A stretch of 64,000 bases of DNA from Methanocorpusculum sp. (lineage in GTDB: Archaea; Halobacteriota; Methanomicrobia; Methanomicrobiales; Methanocorpusculaceae). The stretch is taken from contig JAFQBW010000017.1 in assembly GCA_017399555.1 (NCBI GenBank), positions 1 to 64,000 on the forward strand, in the 5' to 3' direction. Below, one piece after another: positions 48,382 to 53,718 of this stretch (its first letter is position 1; every line of letters starts with the position of its first letter). The position numbers and the translations under genes are program-made. A model generated the notes under the pieces. It did no database searches. It worked only from the letters and a program-made list of their open reading frames with translations, and was not told where the DNA came from.

Positions 48382-48972
48382 TTATTTTCGCCCGGTCAGA
48401 CCTGCAAGAGCGAGTGCGAGGATGATTCCGGCAAGCGGAGCAGGGGATGCGGGCAGGTTTGGTTCTGACGGCGAAGGGATGTCAACCGGAGGGGTTGTTG
48501 GAACATCGCTTTGCGGAGTGTCTGTTGGAAGTTCCGGCGGGGCTTGCGGTGTTTCTGCCGCAGGCGGAGTCAGTCCGGCAGAGGATTCCGGTATCTCAAC
48601 GGGGATGGTGAGCTGAATCTGTGCGGTCTGCTGAGCGGATGAGGGGTTGTAGGTTTGGGTTACAGAGATGTCCGTTCCTGCAACGGAGTAGGTGATTTCA
48701 CTGCCGACGACAGCCCCGCTGATGAGGAATTTATCATCGAATGTGCCCGAGCCGCCGATTTTTCCCGCCTCGGTGAGGGTGAAGGTTGAGGTGATGCCGT
48801 TTACCTCGGCAGTGATTACTGTTCCTGCCGGGAATGGTTTTCCCTCGTGGTTGTAAAGTGTTCCGTAGAACTGTGCCGGAAGGCTTGGGACGTCTGCGAT
48901 ATCCGCAGAGACCGGGCATACGATGAGGGCAAACAGGCAGGCGAGAGCGAGGAGAATGTATGCGGGCTTCAT
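48382..48972 (-). CDS. Secreted membrane-anchored protein, 196 aa
   Basis: A signal peptide at 1-23 (hydrophobic, ending VSA), then a beta-rich domain at about 30-125 of carboxypeptidase-regulatory or Ig type (YNHEGKPFPAGTVITAEVNG), a Pro/Thr/Ser linker at 128-172 and a C-terminal helix (LAGIILALALAGL) with a short basic end. Its start overlaps the stop of the large upstream surface protein by four bases. Inferred: a cell-surface anchor or partner of that protein. Confidence 0.8.
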   Translation of the reverse strand: MKPAYILLALACLFALIVCPVSADIADVPSLPAQFYGTLYNHEGKPFPAGTVITAEVNGITSTFTLTEAGKIGGSGTFDDKFLISGAVVGSEITYSVAGTDISVTQTYNPSSAQQTAQIQLTIPVEIPESSAGLTPPAAETPQAPPELPTDTPQSDVPTTPPVDIPSPSEPNLPASPAPLAGIILALALAGLTGRK

Positions 48973-51806
48973 GCAGTGTTTCCTAAGTATGTTCCGTCTG
49001 CTTCAACGTAGAGCCAGTGTCCGTTTCCAAGCCCGAGTTTGAGTTCTGCGGAGTTTTCAGAGCTTCCGCCGTTGACGATTACTGTGCCCCATTTGCTCTG
49101 TTCAGTGTCCCACGGCATACAGCGTACCCAGTCGAGGTTGGAGAAGGCGGACTTTGCGGTCATGGGTTTTTCTGCGGAGAGTCCAACGGCGTTCCATCCT
49201 TTATAGACGGTCTTTGACGGCGGGGTGTTTACGGCTGTGGAGTATTTGAGGGTGAGTTCATCCGCTCCTTTGGAGTACACCCAGTATCCGTCAAGGGGTT
49301 TTATGGCTGTGTCCGCTTTGAGGACGTACCATCCGGTCTTTGCGTCATAGCCGAGCGGAGATATGCCGTCTGTATCAAGCGCGCCGAAGAGTTCGGATGC
49401 GGTGTCGCAGGATGCGTCAAGATATTTTGGAACGGAGATGAAGTTCCATCCGGGGTTGAGATTGACTTTTTCAGAACCTTTTAAGATTGGAGCAACAGGT
49501 TGCTCCGGAGATGTGTATGTTCCAATCTCTGAGACGGTACTCGTAATTTTTATGACATTGATGTACGTTCCTTTGGATTCCTCAGAGACAACACCGGTAA
49601 AGGTTATTTCAAGGATTGTGTCTGACTTGAAGTTAAGTATAAAGCCAGATATTTTGGAACTCTCATAGTCATTGATGACTGTCTCTCCATTTCTCTTGAC
49701 ATCCGTACTTATTTTCAAGTTCTCAAGAGGAGAGGTGATTGTTAAAGAATCAGAATCTATCATCGAACCACCTGGAATCCTCACTTTCAGACTGCCAGTC
49801 ACACTTTGTCCTGCATCTAAGGATTCTGATGGGCTGATGATAACATCATAGTAAATTTCTGTCGGTTCTGGTTTTGGATTTACTTCATTCTCACTTACAA
49901 CAAAGAAGGAAAACGCTGTATATCTATCGTCTATGTTCTGCGTATACAATACATCACAAAATGCCCCTGCAGCGTTTTCAGGATACATATTCTTCAGATT
50001 GAATAATACCGAACTTCCTGGGATATTGTAGCTTCCCTCTATGTTCAGGACAATATCATACCCTCCTCCCGTACTACTAACCGGACCTACATTAAAAACT
50101 GTGTCATCTCCCGGGTGCTGGATAACGACAAAGTATTCTCCTGTTGACATACTGGATTTTGCAGTATCAAGCGAGATACTAAACTCTCCTTTTGAATTTG
50201 GTGCAACAGTTCCAACACTTACATAATTCAATCCCAGAACATAGTATTGGAGTAACAGCGTATCTTTGGTTTTTCCGGAAATTGATGCCTCTTTATCCTG
50301 AGTTACAACATATTCTGGCGTATCCGGATTCTCAGATACATCTGGGTTGACAGATGCAGTGATAATATTCTCAAACTCCCATACTGCATACTTACCCTTA
50401 GTTATATCTGAAATAGCAGGAGCTGTACTACTGTCACTTGCAACAGCATAGAACTCATATGTTCCAAGTTCGGTAAGTCTTGGAAGAGAAGCAGTTGCTT
50501 TCCAGCGCATATCTACCGGGACATCTGGCTCTTCTGTAAGACAAGTTACAACTCCCGTTGGTGTTTTGAGATAGATATACACAAAATCAGTTGCGGTATT
50601 TACTCCCGAAAAAGAAATTTTATTTTGTACGTGGTTCAGACCTGTGTTAGTAATAGAGATAATTCCTGTATTAGAATCAGCAGGGGTGAGATAAATAAAA
50701 GTTGAATCATCATACATATCATCAACATTCTGTTGATTTATTGCATCGCGTAAAGCCTGAGCGACGCTGAGAAAATCACGGTCTTTGGTGTCGAATATAA
50801 CTGATGCTCCCTGCTGTGAATTATATGGTTTCAGATAAAATTCATAATCACCATTTCCAATGCTGACAGGATAAATGTTGAACTCCTTATCATACATAGG
50901 GTGCTGAATTCCTATGCGATATTCCCCGGATTCAAAACCGGAGGTACTAATCTCAATCCGGAAGGTATTATCATTAGAGACAGGAACACACTCTGTAATC
51001 ATCATCTCGTTGTTAAAGAGATAGTAAACAACTTCATCAGTCCCATAAGCCATTCCAGAAAAGACAACCGAATTACCTGTGTTTACTCCGGAGGGCGAAG
51101 AAGTTATAGTAATTTCTGGTTGCATTAATCCAATCAGGATTCTGGCATATTTCTTATTTCCAAGTTCTTCAAGAGATTGAATCGTCTCCTCTCCGGATAC
51201 CACACAGAAAGCATATGTTCCTACATCAAGTTTCTTACTGCCTGATTCAAGACCAAAAGTATCTACTTCCACAGACCACTTTCCATCCACAACTGACACA
51301 GCATTATCTGTAATCTCTGTAAGTGGGAACATAGTTCCAGAAATATATACTCTTACAGAATCACCATAAGTATTCTCACCAGACAGGGTGAATGGTTCAA
51401 GAAGATAATACGCTGTATCTTCCGAAGTAATGGTGATACTGCCACCTGCTTTGTGTGATAATACAACAACCTCTTTTGTAGTAGAAATCTTCTCACCATT
51501 TACCGTAGCATTCAGCCAGACAGTATATGTTCCGGGCAACTCGTATGTATGAGAAAGTGATTTGCTTGAAGCGCCCAAAGAAAACTCGGGAGTTCCATCA
51601 CCAAAATTTACTTTGAGGTCAGTGCAATCCGCACTGGAAAAGGTAAATACTGCATTTGCAGGATACTCTGAATAGGTGTCCGAGATTGAATTAATATTTA
51701 GATACGGAGATGCCCCTGCCGAACCTGCGAACAGCAGACACAAAACCGCCGCGAACAGAATGCCTCTAATCAAAGAGCGCGATATAGTTGTGCGAGTGAC
51801 TTCCAT
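48969..51806 (-). CDS. Large secreted surface protein with a PKD domain and repeats
   Basis: A 945-aa exported protein: signal peptide at about 1-32, a PKD-like domain near 40-115 (VNFGDGTPEF), then two similar modules of about 250 residues whose ends carry Y(R/F)(I/V)(G/V)IQHP motifs, as in the DUF3821-type surface proteins of Methanomicrobiales. A C-terminal LNPGWNFISVP domain follows. There is no C-terminal membrane helix; the coupled downstream gene has one. The central part is distinctly A/T-rich compared with the 3' end (48969-49500), hinting at a mosaic origin. Likely a target of AglB glycosylation. Confidence 0.85.
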   Translation of the reverse strand: MEVTRTTISRSLIRGILFAAVLCLLFAGSAGASPYLNINSISDTYSEYPANAVFTFSSADCTDLKVNFGDGTPEFSLGASSKSLSHTYELPGTYTVWLNATVNGEKISTTKEVVVLSHKAGGSITITSEDTAYYLLEPFTLSGENTYGDSVRVYISGTMFPLTEITDNAVSVVDGKWSVEVDTFGLESGSKKLDVGTYAFCVVSGEETIQSLEELGNKKYARILIGLMQPEITITSSPSGVNTGNSVVFSGMAYGTDEVVYYLFNNEMMITECVPVSNDNTFRIEISTSGFESGEYRIGIQHPMYDKEFNIYPVSIGNGDYEFYLKPYNSQQGASVIFDTKDRDFLSVAQALRDAINQQNVDDMYDDSTFIYLTPADSNTGIISITNTGLNHVQNKISFSGVNTATDFVYIYLKTPTGVVTCLTEEPDVPVDMRWKATASLPRLTELGTYEFYAVASDSSTAPAISDITKGKYAVWEFENIITASVNPDVSENPDTPEYVVTQDKEASISGKTKDTLLLQYYVLGLNYVSVGTVAPNSKGEFSISLDTAKSSMSTGEYFVVIQHPGDDTVFNVGPVSSTGGGYDIVLNIEGSYNIPGSSVLFNLKNMYPENAAGAFCDVLYTQNIDDRYTAFSFFVVSENEVNPKPEPTEIYYDVIISPSESLDAGQSVTGSLKVRIPGGSMIDSDSLTITSPLENLKISTDVKRNGETVINDYESSKISGFILNFKSDTILEITFTGVVSEESKGTYINVIKITSTVSEIGTYTSPEQPVAPILKGSEKVNLNPGWNFISVPKYLDASCDTASELFGALDTDGISPLGYDAKTGWYVLKADTAIKPLDGYWVYSKGADELTLKYSTAVNTPPSKTVYKGWNAVGLSAEKPMTAKSAFSNLDWVRCMPWDTEQSKWGTVIVNGGSSENSAELKLGLGNGHWLYVEADGTYLGNTA

Positions 51807-51902
51807 ATAACAATAATATGTTGCGTAATTTTACATCAATGTTGCGCAGATATGGGCTATTTACAAAATTATGTTTCACAGGATGAACACTGAATAGATA
51901 CT

Positions 51903-52122
51903 GAAAAGAACACAGACCACACAGACACGGGCGACGCCCGCAGCGACCAGTCGCTCCCGCCTGACGGCGGGCTGCTGCCGCAGCCGCTTTGTGGTCGCTA
52001 ACTGTATCTTTGAATCACCAAGCAACGCTCAGTCGCGGCTGCGGCAGCAGCTCACGACCAACGGGAGTGAGAGCGACGCGTTGCTGCGCCGAAGGCGCGT
52101 CTGTGTTGTCTGTGTTCTTTTC
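51903..52122. repeat. Nested inverted repeat, about 220 bp, possible MITE or structured RNA
   Basis: Outer arms of 24 bp at 51903-51926 and 52099-52122 differ at one position and each contains a doubled ACACAGAC-like unit. Inner arms of 17 bp at 51971-51987 and 52035-52051 (GCTGCTGCCGCAGCCGC) match perfectly around a 47-bp loop. Between them further GC-rich stretches pair in part. The element is much richer in GC than its surroundings and has no ORF of its own. It resembles intergenic palindromic repeats or a non-autonomous element; whether other copies exist cannot be seen here. Confidence 0.6.
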
Positions 52123-52139
52123 CAAATGTATCCGAGGCA

Positions 52140-52440
52140 CAGTTACAAACCAAAAACATATGAGCCGACGACTCACTGTATCACCCCAAATACCCCAGAC
52201 ATCACAGCTGAAACACCCACGTTTTGCACAGATTCACACTGACACCCCCTTATTTTCACCAACATCAGAAAACCCCGCAAAACAAACAGGAATCACCAAA
52301 CAAACCACCATACAAACCCGGAATCAAAAAACAGCACACAAAAACCCAAAAAAACACCGAATAACACACAACACAAACCGCACCGAAACAACCCGCAAAA
52401 AGCCGCCAAACAGCAAAAAACCGACAGAACAGCAGACATC
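52140..52440 (+). other. A/C-rich, T-poor strand-asymmetric non-coding tract
   Basis: Over 52261-52440 I count 156 A or C in 180 bases and only six T. ORFs on both strands here have low-complexity translations and are not credible genes. The tract links the GC-rich inverted repeat on its left to the long inverted-repeat pair on its right, within a 922-bp region (51807-52728) without a supported gene. Confidence 0.6.
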
Positions 52441-52453
52441 TCCCGCCGGAAAA

Positions 52454-52693
52454 AAGTATGTAAATGAAAAAAAAGTATATGGGGGGGGAAACCATGCGCA
52501 TATGCGCATGTGCGCATAACTTTAGTCCGTTCCGAAAATAATTTTTTCTCAAAAAAATCATTTTCTCCCGAAGAAAATTTTTCTCAAAAAATCTTGTTGT
52601 ATTATTTGTAATTAATAATATAAATATTAATGTGCGCACATGCGCATATGCGCATGCTTACCCCCCACATACCTTTTTTTCGTTTACATACTT
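52454..52693. repeat. 64-bp inverted-repeat pair flanking an A/T-rich core (origin-like locus)
   Basis: The left arm (52454-52517) and right arm (52630-52693) are inverted copies of an AAGTATGTAAA block, an A-tract, GTATRTG, a run of six to eight G and CATGCGCATATGCGCATG followed by TGCGCA. The 24-bp ends at 52493-52516 and 52633-52656 are identical. The 112-bp spacer has 23 G or C (about 80% A/T) and contains a direct repeat and a small hairpin. The layout of paired sites around an easily melted core recalls archaeal origins. No canonical ORB sequence or orc1/cdc6 gene is visible, so the identity is open. Confidence 0.65.
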
Positions 52694-52728: not shown

Positions 52729-53718
52729 TTACCGCGTCAGCGGCATATTCCAGGAAGTCTCATTCTCCAAAACGAACTCCCACTCCTCGCGGCAGTTCTC
52801 CCCCGCATCCCAGACAGCCTGCAGTACCGCCTTGTCCCCGGAAAGCGAATACTCATTAATTGCAGACACAATTTCCTTATCAAGACAGCCTTCCACCTGC
52901 TTTGCCCCGTTATGCGGACCGCGGGTAAAACCCCCTCCTACCGGATCGCACGAAACAAACACATCCGCATCCAGAAGAACCTTTACTGCAGACCACAGAT
53001 ACGGCGGACGGAAAGAACCGCGCTGCCAGTACTGCTCAAGCTCAGTCTTGCCCTGCACCGTACAGAGATTCATCGAAATCATATCAGCGTATGGAGTCAC
53101 CTCCGCAATCGACTTCTGCATATCATCCAATGCCTCGCGCTCCGTTAAGAACAGCGGTTTCATCATAAGATATGCCTTAATGGACACTCCTGCCTTGTGC
53201 GCAATCTCTGCCGCCTGCTTAAAGTCCGCAAATGTATTGCCCTTATCAATCGACTTCTCGCGGATAGCATCGTTTGTCGTCTCGAGGCCGACAGCCACGG
53301 TCAGCGGGTGCTCCTGCCCGGTATCAAGCGTCGACAGCAGCCGCTCAAGCGCCTCCTCGGTCACATACTCACAGCGGGATTCTGCAACCAGCGGCTTTCC
53401 GGCAAAGAACGTGCCGAACGTATCCAGCACCTCAAGCGGCACCTCGTTTTCATCAAACACACTGCCGGACGTAAAGATTTTTCCAAGCTCATACTCCTCC
53501 GGCTTGAAATTCTCGCCAAGCCAGGACACCTGCGCCTGCATATGCTCAATCAGCTCAGGTCTCGGACTGCAGTCGCGGTCATTTTTGTAACCGCACATTC
53601 TGCATCTGTTCCACGAACAGCCGCCGGATAAGAAAATCGCGGTCAGCGTTGACTTCACCTCGCCGAAGAACCTATCCTGACCCTTCCACGAAGCAAGCGG
53701 TTTAATTGGTCTGCTCAT
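52729..53718 (-). CDS. raSEA: Archaeosine synthase radical SAM subunit RaSEA
   Basis: With ArcS (not in this window) it converts preQ0-lysine at position 15 of tRNA into archaeosine. At 329 aa it has the family length; radical SAM cysteines are C34, C39 and C42 (CSWNRCRMC), followed by a TIM-barrel fold with the LETTND motif. It overlaps the upstream M20 peptidase gene by four bases. Downstream lies the long non-coding region. Confidence 0.9.
   Translation of the reverse strand: MSRPIKPLASWKGQDRFFGEVKSTLTAIFLSGGCSWNRCRMCGYKNDRDCSPRPELIEHMQAQVSWLGENFKPEEYELGKIFTSGSVFDENEVPLEVLDTFGTFFAGKPLVAESRCEYVTEEALERLLSTLDTGQEHPLTVAVGLETTNDAIREKSIDKGNTFADFKQAAEIAHKAGVSIKAYLMMKPLFLTEREALDDMQKSIAEVTPYADMISMNLCTVQGKTELEQYWQRGSFRPPYLWSAVKVLLDADVFVSCDPVGGGFTRGPHNGAKQVEGCLDKEIVSAINEYSLSGDKAVLQAVWDAGENCREEWEFVLENETSWNMPLTR

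Follow-up and report, generated by a model that had tools for sequence, protein, structure and literature searches.

An inverted-repeat element of 240 bp in a draft Methanocorpusculum genome was found to be a stand-alone copy of a cis-acting site present repeatedly across this genus, and it is very unlikely to be the main chromosomal origin. The element lies in the window (the whole stretch of 64,000 nucleotides analyzed here), which is part of contig C10 (117 kb) of an assembly with 67 contigs and 2.02 Mb; the nearest named relatives of the source genome are gut Methanocorpusculum. A literature search returned no description of this element family.

Anatomy of the element

The initial annotation of this DNA described two 64-bp inverted arms around a 112-bp core of about 80% A/T, and both the sequence and the coordinates of the arms check out, as do the A/T content of the core and the presence of a G-string, an A-tract and a TGCGCA block in each arm (Table 1). 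The arms had also been called near-identical, which holds for the inner halves, with the innermost 24 bp exact, while the outer parts are only ~90% alike. A repeat finder returned the inverted pairs 52469-52516/52633-52680 (48 nt, 88% complementary) and 52454-52486/52661-52693 (33 nt, 91%), which are separated by a 2-nt register shift. From the outside in, each arm is built of an outer box, an A-tract, GTATRT, a G-string (8 nt in the left arm, 6 in the right) and three TGCGCA units with an 8-bp period; a window arm reads GAAAAAAAGGTATGTGGGGGGTAAG, then TGCGCA. Two features had been missed previously: no alternating purine-pyrimidine runs in the window are longer than the two in the arms (28 and 26 bp), and two direct repeats of 26 bp lie 35 bp apart in the core. 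The promoter-like motif listed in Table 1 recurs in the loci L044, L093, L116, L164, L165 and L166, and less exactly in genome G018.

The symmetry of the arms is far beyond chance. Across 840 bp that include the site, the top-scoring inverted match of 48 nt reached 42/48, compared with a best value of 27 in 60 dinucleotide shuffles, and the single-strand fold reached -69.8 kcal/mol against -22.6 +/- 3.4 in shuffles (z = -14.0). An RNA gene was considered and rejected, the Rfam matches being miRNA-type hairpins far below the gathering scores, several of them on both strands because the element is symmetrical.

Table 1 Features of the window element and related loci (positions in the window, or locus)
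Feature	Position or locus	Strand	Description
Left arm	52454..52517	+	Outer box (AAGTATGTAAATG), A-tract, GTATAT, G-string, TGCGCA iteron array; pairs with 52630-52693
A/T-rich core	52518..52629	none	112 bp, 79.5% A/T; 88% identity to G018 copy
Right arm	52630..52693	-	Left arm inverted
Left-arm G-string (GGGGGGGG)	52481..52488	+	
Right-arm G-string	52661..52666	-	CCCCCC on + strand
Left specificity array	52493..52518	+	TGCGCA, 8-bp period; 26 bp alternating purine-pyrimidine
Right specificity array	52630..52657	-	TGCGCA, 8-bp period; 28 bp alternating purine-pyrimidine
Core direct repeat, copy 1	52531..52556	+	81% alike to copy 2; related repeats in G018 and G023 cores
Core direct repeat, copy 2	52566..52591	+	From repeat finder and core comparison
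TATA-like box TATTTATA (52619-52626), then ~25 bp on ACAACAAGA (52592-52600)	52592..52626	-	Promoter-like, predicted
Arm type TGCACACATGTGC	L164-L166		Element before operon
Arm type GACTACGTCCG with TACT repeats	L167-L169		Element before operon
TACGTCCGGACGTA-armed relative of the GACTACGTCCG type	L175		
Arm type ACTACCTACC	L171, L174		
Mini-ORB-bearing clade loci	L208, L210-L212, L220-L235		G011, G013, G014, G016; most copies, one arm

The element lies 3' of a radical-SAM gene (52729-53718, minus strand; PF04055 just under the cut-off) and upstream of a gene for a PKD-domain surface protein (48969-51806, minus strand), the start of which is ~650 bp away. Also upstream of the PKD gene is a second inverted repeat of ~230 bp (51894-52133), which is richer in G/C and looks like a MITE-like dispersed repeat, since copies 75-83% similar were found in L116, L176, L177 and L165. 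Between this repeat and the element, ~300 bp (52140-52440) are strongly strand-asymmetric, with an A- and C-rich plus strand, and apparently non-coding.

The element family and its operon

Within the genus, the family follows one plan: an outer box, an A-tract, CGATA or GGATA, a G/C-string, iterons and an A/T core, followed by the mirror image. This plan was found in the island loci L164-L169, L171, L174 and L175 and in several stand-alone copies. Four arm types were distinguished by their arrays (TGCGCA, GACTACGTCCG, ACTACCTACC and TGCACACATGTGC), the tandem iterons of the window arms having similar arrays as counterparts in the other types; the right arm of L167, for example, when turned round reads AAAAAAAAGGATAGGGGGGTAAG, then its own iterons. 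Sequences differ between copies, and the two arms within one copy change together. At 5470-5720 of L255 (genome G007), an A/T region between inverted TGACGTCATACGTCATACGTCA-like repeats stands just before an unnamed gene and a homologue of the operon protein Y described below, and it is possibly a further arm type.

At most island loci the element is 0.3-2.1 kb from a compact operon with the order RHH0, RHH-A, X, HNH, Y, Z and a small membrane peptide. RHH-A, X, HNH, Y and Z are collinear in L044, L116 and L164-L166, and related sets were found in L167-L175; RHH0 is an RHH-like protein of 49-52 aa before RHH-A in L168 and L171, and the short membrane peptide comes after Z. The AlphaFold2 model of RHH-A (pLDDT 84) has an RHH-like helix order and a helical tail. 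Since Foldseek gave no confirmation of the fold and Pfam RHH matches were below the cut-off, RHH-A is called RHH-like here by its predicted topology. Its N-terminal strand varies with arm type, with K in the GACTACGTCCG type and R in the ACTACCTACC type. HNH was matched by profiles of phage HNH and of homing endonucleases. For RHH-A, X, Y and Z, nothing in Pfam, PHROGs or NCBIfam came above the cut-off.

Among 41 genomes, RHH-A and Y were confined to the genus. The unnamed protein Z is multi-copy and order-wide (164 of 199 genomes), and in the regions checked outside the genus it occurs without RHH-A, HNH or clear arms; its fold gave weak CYTH/tunnel-enzyme-like matches (TM ~0.3). A homologue of Z, 64% identical to the L116 copy, is encoded in the window at 251-730 on the plus strand.

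In L093 and L116, a gene for a NikA-like (relaxosome accessory) RHH protein abuts the element (PF21983, above the cut-off). Genes for RHH or RHH-like proteins adjoin island copies, not the window copy. In the islands read, no ParA-like gene was recognized, nor were Rep, relaxase or integrase genes. None of RHH-A, X, HNH, Y and Z matched a Y1 HUH transposase, the proteins scanned included no recognized HUH or DDE transposase, and neither a target-site duplication nor a defined empty site was seen. The cargo genes between element and operon differ, with a Schlafen AlbA_2/HATPase gene in L116 (6293-7972) and an ADP-ribosyltransferase-like gene in L093 (1442-2083). A viral or plasmid origin was not borne out by the databases, Z and RHH-A being without relatives in IMG/VR viral contigs and Z without any in PLSDB plasmids; a known defence operon was likewise discarded, PADLOC profiles matching only HNH (homing endonuclease) and the Schlafen-like cargo.

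Island and stand-alone copies

In the complete genomes G014 and G016, family sequence was found at 6 and ~10 places, respectively, some of the weaker matches being short. Three places in each are <2 kb from an RHH-A gene and the rest stand alone between ordinary genes; two arm types coexist in both genomes, each of them both alone and with the operon. The drafts G002 and G020 contain copies with no RHH-A detected, which means that RHH-A binding is not needed for persistence or that the gene is unassembled. For several copies, as at the radical-SAM gene, only one of the two flanks is common to two or three species. Copies sit at synteny breakpoints, where one neighbour gene is kept and the other side differs (stand-alone copies of G014, G011, G016, G002 and G020, and those of the window and G018).

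In the source genome, a sequence search recovered only one full-length copy, that of the window. A pattern search for TGCGC arrays revealed a diverged second one at C63:2300-2600, giving two in total. The C63 copy adjoins a NikA-like RHH gene (PF21983, above the cut-off) and an ADP-ribosyltransferase-like gene, past which come RHH-A, X and the start of the HNH gene. The end of contig C55 carries the same HNH gene and then Y and Z, and it shares with the start of C63 an exact 105-bp overlap within the HNH gene; therefore, the two contigs join into one island with the order Z-Y-HNH-X-RHH-A-cargo-element-NikA, whose arms are of the TGCGCA type, as in the window.

Conservation at the radical-SAM locus

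Searching the genus with the TGCGC-array pattern, we found the exact type only in the source genome (G000), G018 and G009; the matches in G044 and G036 have no A/T core. The G009 copy belongs to an island, has TGCGCA arms and comes with a Schlafen-type cargo gene, and G006 retains a lone degraded arm near an RHH-like remnant. In G018 the copy lies 3' of the same radical-SAM gene and is 81.6% identical to the window element over 244 aligned nt (88% in the core, both cores being the same way round), whereas the two radical-SAM genes share 84% identity, with only 46% at four-fold sites. This conservation could reflect recent mobility rather than selection. The closest relative by the radical-SAM gene is G023 (=G061), with 96.5% identity in the gene and 88% at four-fold sites; it has no element beside this gene, and its copy, on C39, adjoins an intact operon. 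The element is missing at the radical-SAM gene in 14 of the 16 genus genomes with a readable downstream flank. Species differ by rearrangement in the region 3' of this gene.

Of the 33 arm columns that vary between the window and G018, 15 had changed identically in both arms, where ~3 were expected by chance as estimated from the observed divergence. The core direct repeats have changed together too (GAG in the window and G018, GGT in G023). This points either to constraint on both arms by a single protein or to their equalisation through gene conversion.

Comparison with chromosomal origins

Archaeal origins have been described as an A/T core between inverted repeats with a G-string (PMC4010727; PMC4164010), and the element matches this description. 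In Methanocorpusculum, the A/T region of the oriC found upstream of orc1 is bordered by inverted boxes (TTCCACTCGCAACAAAGGGGTGGGGG) that agree with the published ORBs (PMC4164010; PMC4010727), and the boxes of the orc1-upstream origin read TTCCACTCG(C/A)AAC(n)AAGGGG. With a motif built from orc1-upstream regions, and the ORB consensus of PMC4164010 for comparison, the best match within 450 bp of the window element scored 2.5 bits, which is background (4.3 such sites per kb). A search for orc1/cdc6 genes beside the element gave none. The initial annotation had likewise remarked that the sequence is not the known ORB consensus and that the window has no orc1/cdc6 gene. A second orc/cdc6 paralogue was found at C63:12532-13677 (minus strand); the canonical orc1 and its origin are absent from the source draft.

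The AT skew of G014, sampled over half of the genome, is mostly negative from 0 to ~0.8 Mb and mostly positive beyond, and changes sign only near orc1 (position 0) and at 0.8-0.9 Mb. This is the pattern of one origin at orc1, and none of the six family copies marks a switch. Contig C10, which is too short for such a test, showed no clear skew minimum.

In one group of genomes (G011, G013, G014 and G016), a mini-ORB core, TTCCA[CT]TCG, was found within 450 bp of 16 of the 23 copies, mostly 130-180 bp outside an arm, including 5 of the 6 copies of G014. The density near those copies is 0.61 per kb against a background of 0.03-0.04 per kb, i.e. ~14- to 21-fold; no mini-ORB was found near the window copy. 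Because the copies are related by descent, the ORB association and the pairing of arms with RHH-A are not independent events, and we regard the mini-ORB association at the clade copies as a lead, not a proof.

On ORB content, gene neighbours, distribution and the skew sampled in G014, the proposal that the element is the main origin was rejected. The absence of the arms in relatives, named beforehand as a test of the origin reading, was observed at the radical-SAM gene in 14 of 16 genus genomes, the closest relative included. Scattered copies, which had been named as the mark of a repeat family, were found in the relatives, although the source genome has two copies only. That the window element is a chromosomal replication origin of any kind, main or accessory, is therefore very improbable despite the shared A/T core, inverted repeats and G-string: no ORB is near, the orc/cdc6 paralogue of the draft lies on C63 with orc1 itself missing, and the skew of G014, as sampled, does not switch at family copies.

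Discussion

The anatomy of the element, its family, the linkage to the operon and the concerted change of the arms are shown by these data. For the mechanism, we tentatively favour the reading that the element is a stand-alone copy of the origin-like site of an island, with arms loaded by RHH proteins around a melting core. Each arm would be an iteron array bound by dimers of a DNA-binding protein, most simply an island RHH protein, and the complexes on both arms, together with the A-tracts and G-strings, would bend and unwind the A/T core. The site would then act as the origin-like locus of the island, either as a replicator or in mobilisation. Stand-alone copies may be sites that stayed behind, or were placed, without an operon and have been maintained at fixed positions, and the arm types may have diversified so that each island recognizes its own site. 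The earlier idea of protein dimers on both sides of a melted core is supported in spirit, as it fits the family, with binding and melting putative. The alternative offered alongside it, a plasmid-like site or the trace of an integrated element, agrees with a family found beside a mobile-looking operon.

The favoured reading has to be weighed against a non-autonomous mobile repeat, in which the inverted pair would be copied in trans by island proteins, as in REPIN/RAYT or MITE systems, and stand-alone copies would be its progeny. Scattered stand-alone copies with a few beside the operon, the two arm types of G014 and G016, each alone and with the operon, and presence or absence beside the same gene between the source genome and its closest relative would all agree with this. 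We nevertheless consider it unlikely: this transposon-like explanation is weakened by the lack of any recognized HUH or DDE transposase among the scanned proteins and of target-site duplications, copy number is low (two in the source genome, ~6-10 places in complete relatives), and several copies lie by the same gene in different species, which is more like inheritance than jumping. A functionless remnant of a decayed island, symmetrical because it is recent or gene-converted, would explain the missing operon, the degraded solo arm with its RHH-like remnant in G006 and the rearranged region 3' of the radical-SAM gene. This we hold to be highly improbable, since the core and the element (~82%) are still so alike in the window and G018 where four-fold sites have fallen to 46%, and the two arms still match each other.

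The core could also be a promoter and the arms operators for RHH autoregulation of the operon, in which case the window copy would drive the PKD gene. The core is conserved, and the TATA-like box with ACAACAAGA points at the operon in L044, L093, L116 and L164-L166 and at the PKD gene in the window. However, the orientation of the core relative to the operon is reversed in L170-L174 against L167-L169 and L175, and since the core faces the operon in some islands and away from it in others, this explanation is weakened. Genes on the other strand that separate the element from its operon in L093 and L116, the ~650 bp to the PKD start and a G018 copy without an in-line downstream gene also speak against it, and we think it quite unlikely. 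An invertible promoter (phase variation) was rejected, as whole elements with their flanks, not cores alone, are reversed relative to the operon, the window and G018 cores have the same orientation and no recombinase was recognized.

Several known systems share features with this family. With archaeal oriC (Orc1/Cdc6, including Methanocorpusculum L063/L069) the family shares the A/T core, inverted repeats and G-strings, and copies of one clade lie near mini-ORBs; yet its arms are not ORBs, no initiator gene is adjacent, several copies per chromosome occur without skew switches and the window copy has no ORB. In plasmid iteron/RHH partition or relaxosome sites (ParG-type, NikA-type), short tandem iterons are read by small RHH proteins encoded next door. 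The tandem iterons, the A/T-rich neighbour and the NikA-like gene abutting two island copies recall such sites, but the family is chromosomal, with several stand-alone copies and no ParA, Rep or relaxase recognized. In bacterial REPIN/RAYT systems, two short repeats in inverted orientation enclose a spacer; such pairs are dispersed outside genes, a few of them beside the cognate operon, with more than one type per genome. Inverted pairs scattered outside genes are likewise seen in the relatives, with two in the source genome, whereas the family has an HNH homing-type endonuclease and RHH-like proteins in place of a recognized Y1 HUH transposase, the element measures 240 bp, with 64-bp arms, and its copies are few. 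MITEs and small insertion sequences are also dispersed short inverted-repeat elements, but here no transposase or target-site duplication was seen and the operon lies outside the arms, not between them.

It is possible, though doubtful, that these loci represent a new class of small archaeal islands whose origin- or centromere-like site is scattered and kept as stand-alone copies, with RHH proteins and arms co-diversifying into specificity types within one genome. Genomes holding two or more arm types, each alone and with the operon, offer paired test objects, and if RHH proteins read the arms, they would be a ready system for studying co-divergence of DNA site and reader in Archaea. Multi-copy chromosomal sites are little known in methanogens; if the stand-alone copies act on the chromosome, in segregation, organisation, as dormant origins or in recombination, they would form a new class of such sites. 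Even as the site of a mobile island alone, the element would account, in a common genus of gut methanogens, for unannotated inverted repeats that recur and for a gene cluster without a name.
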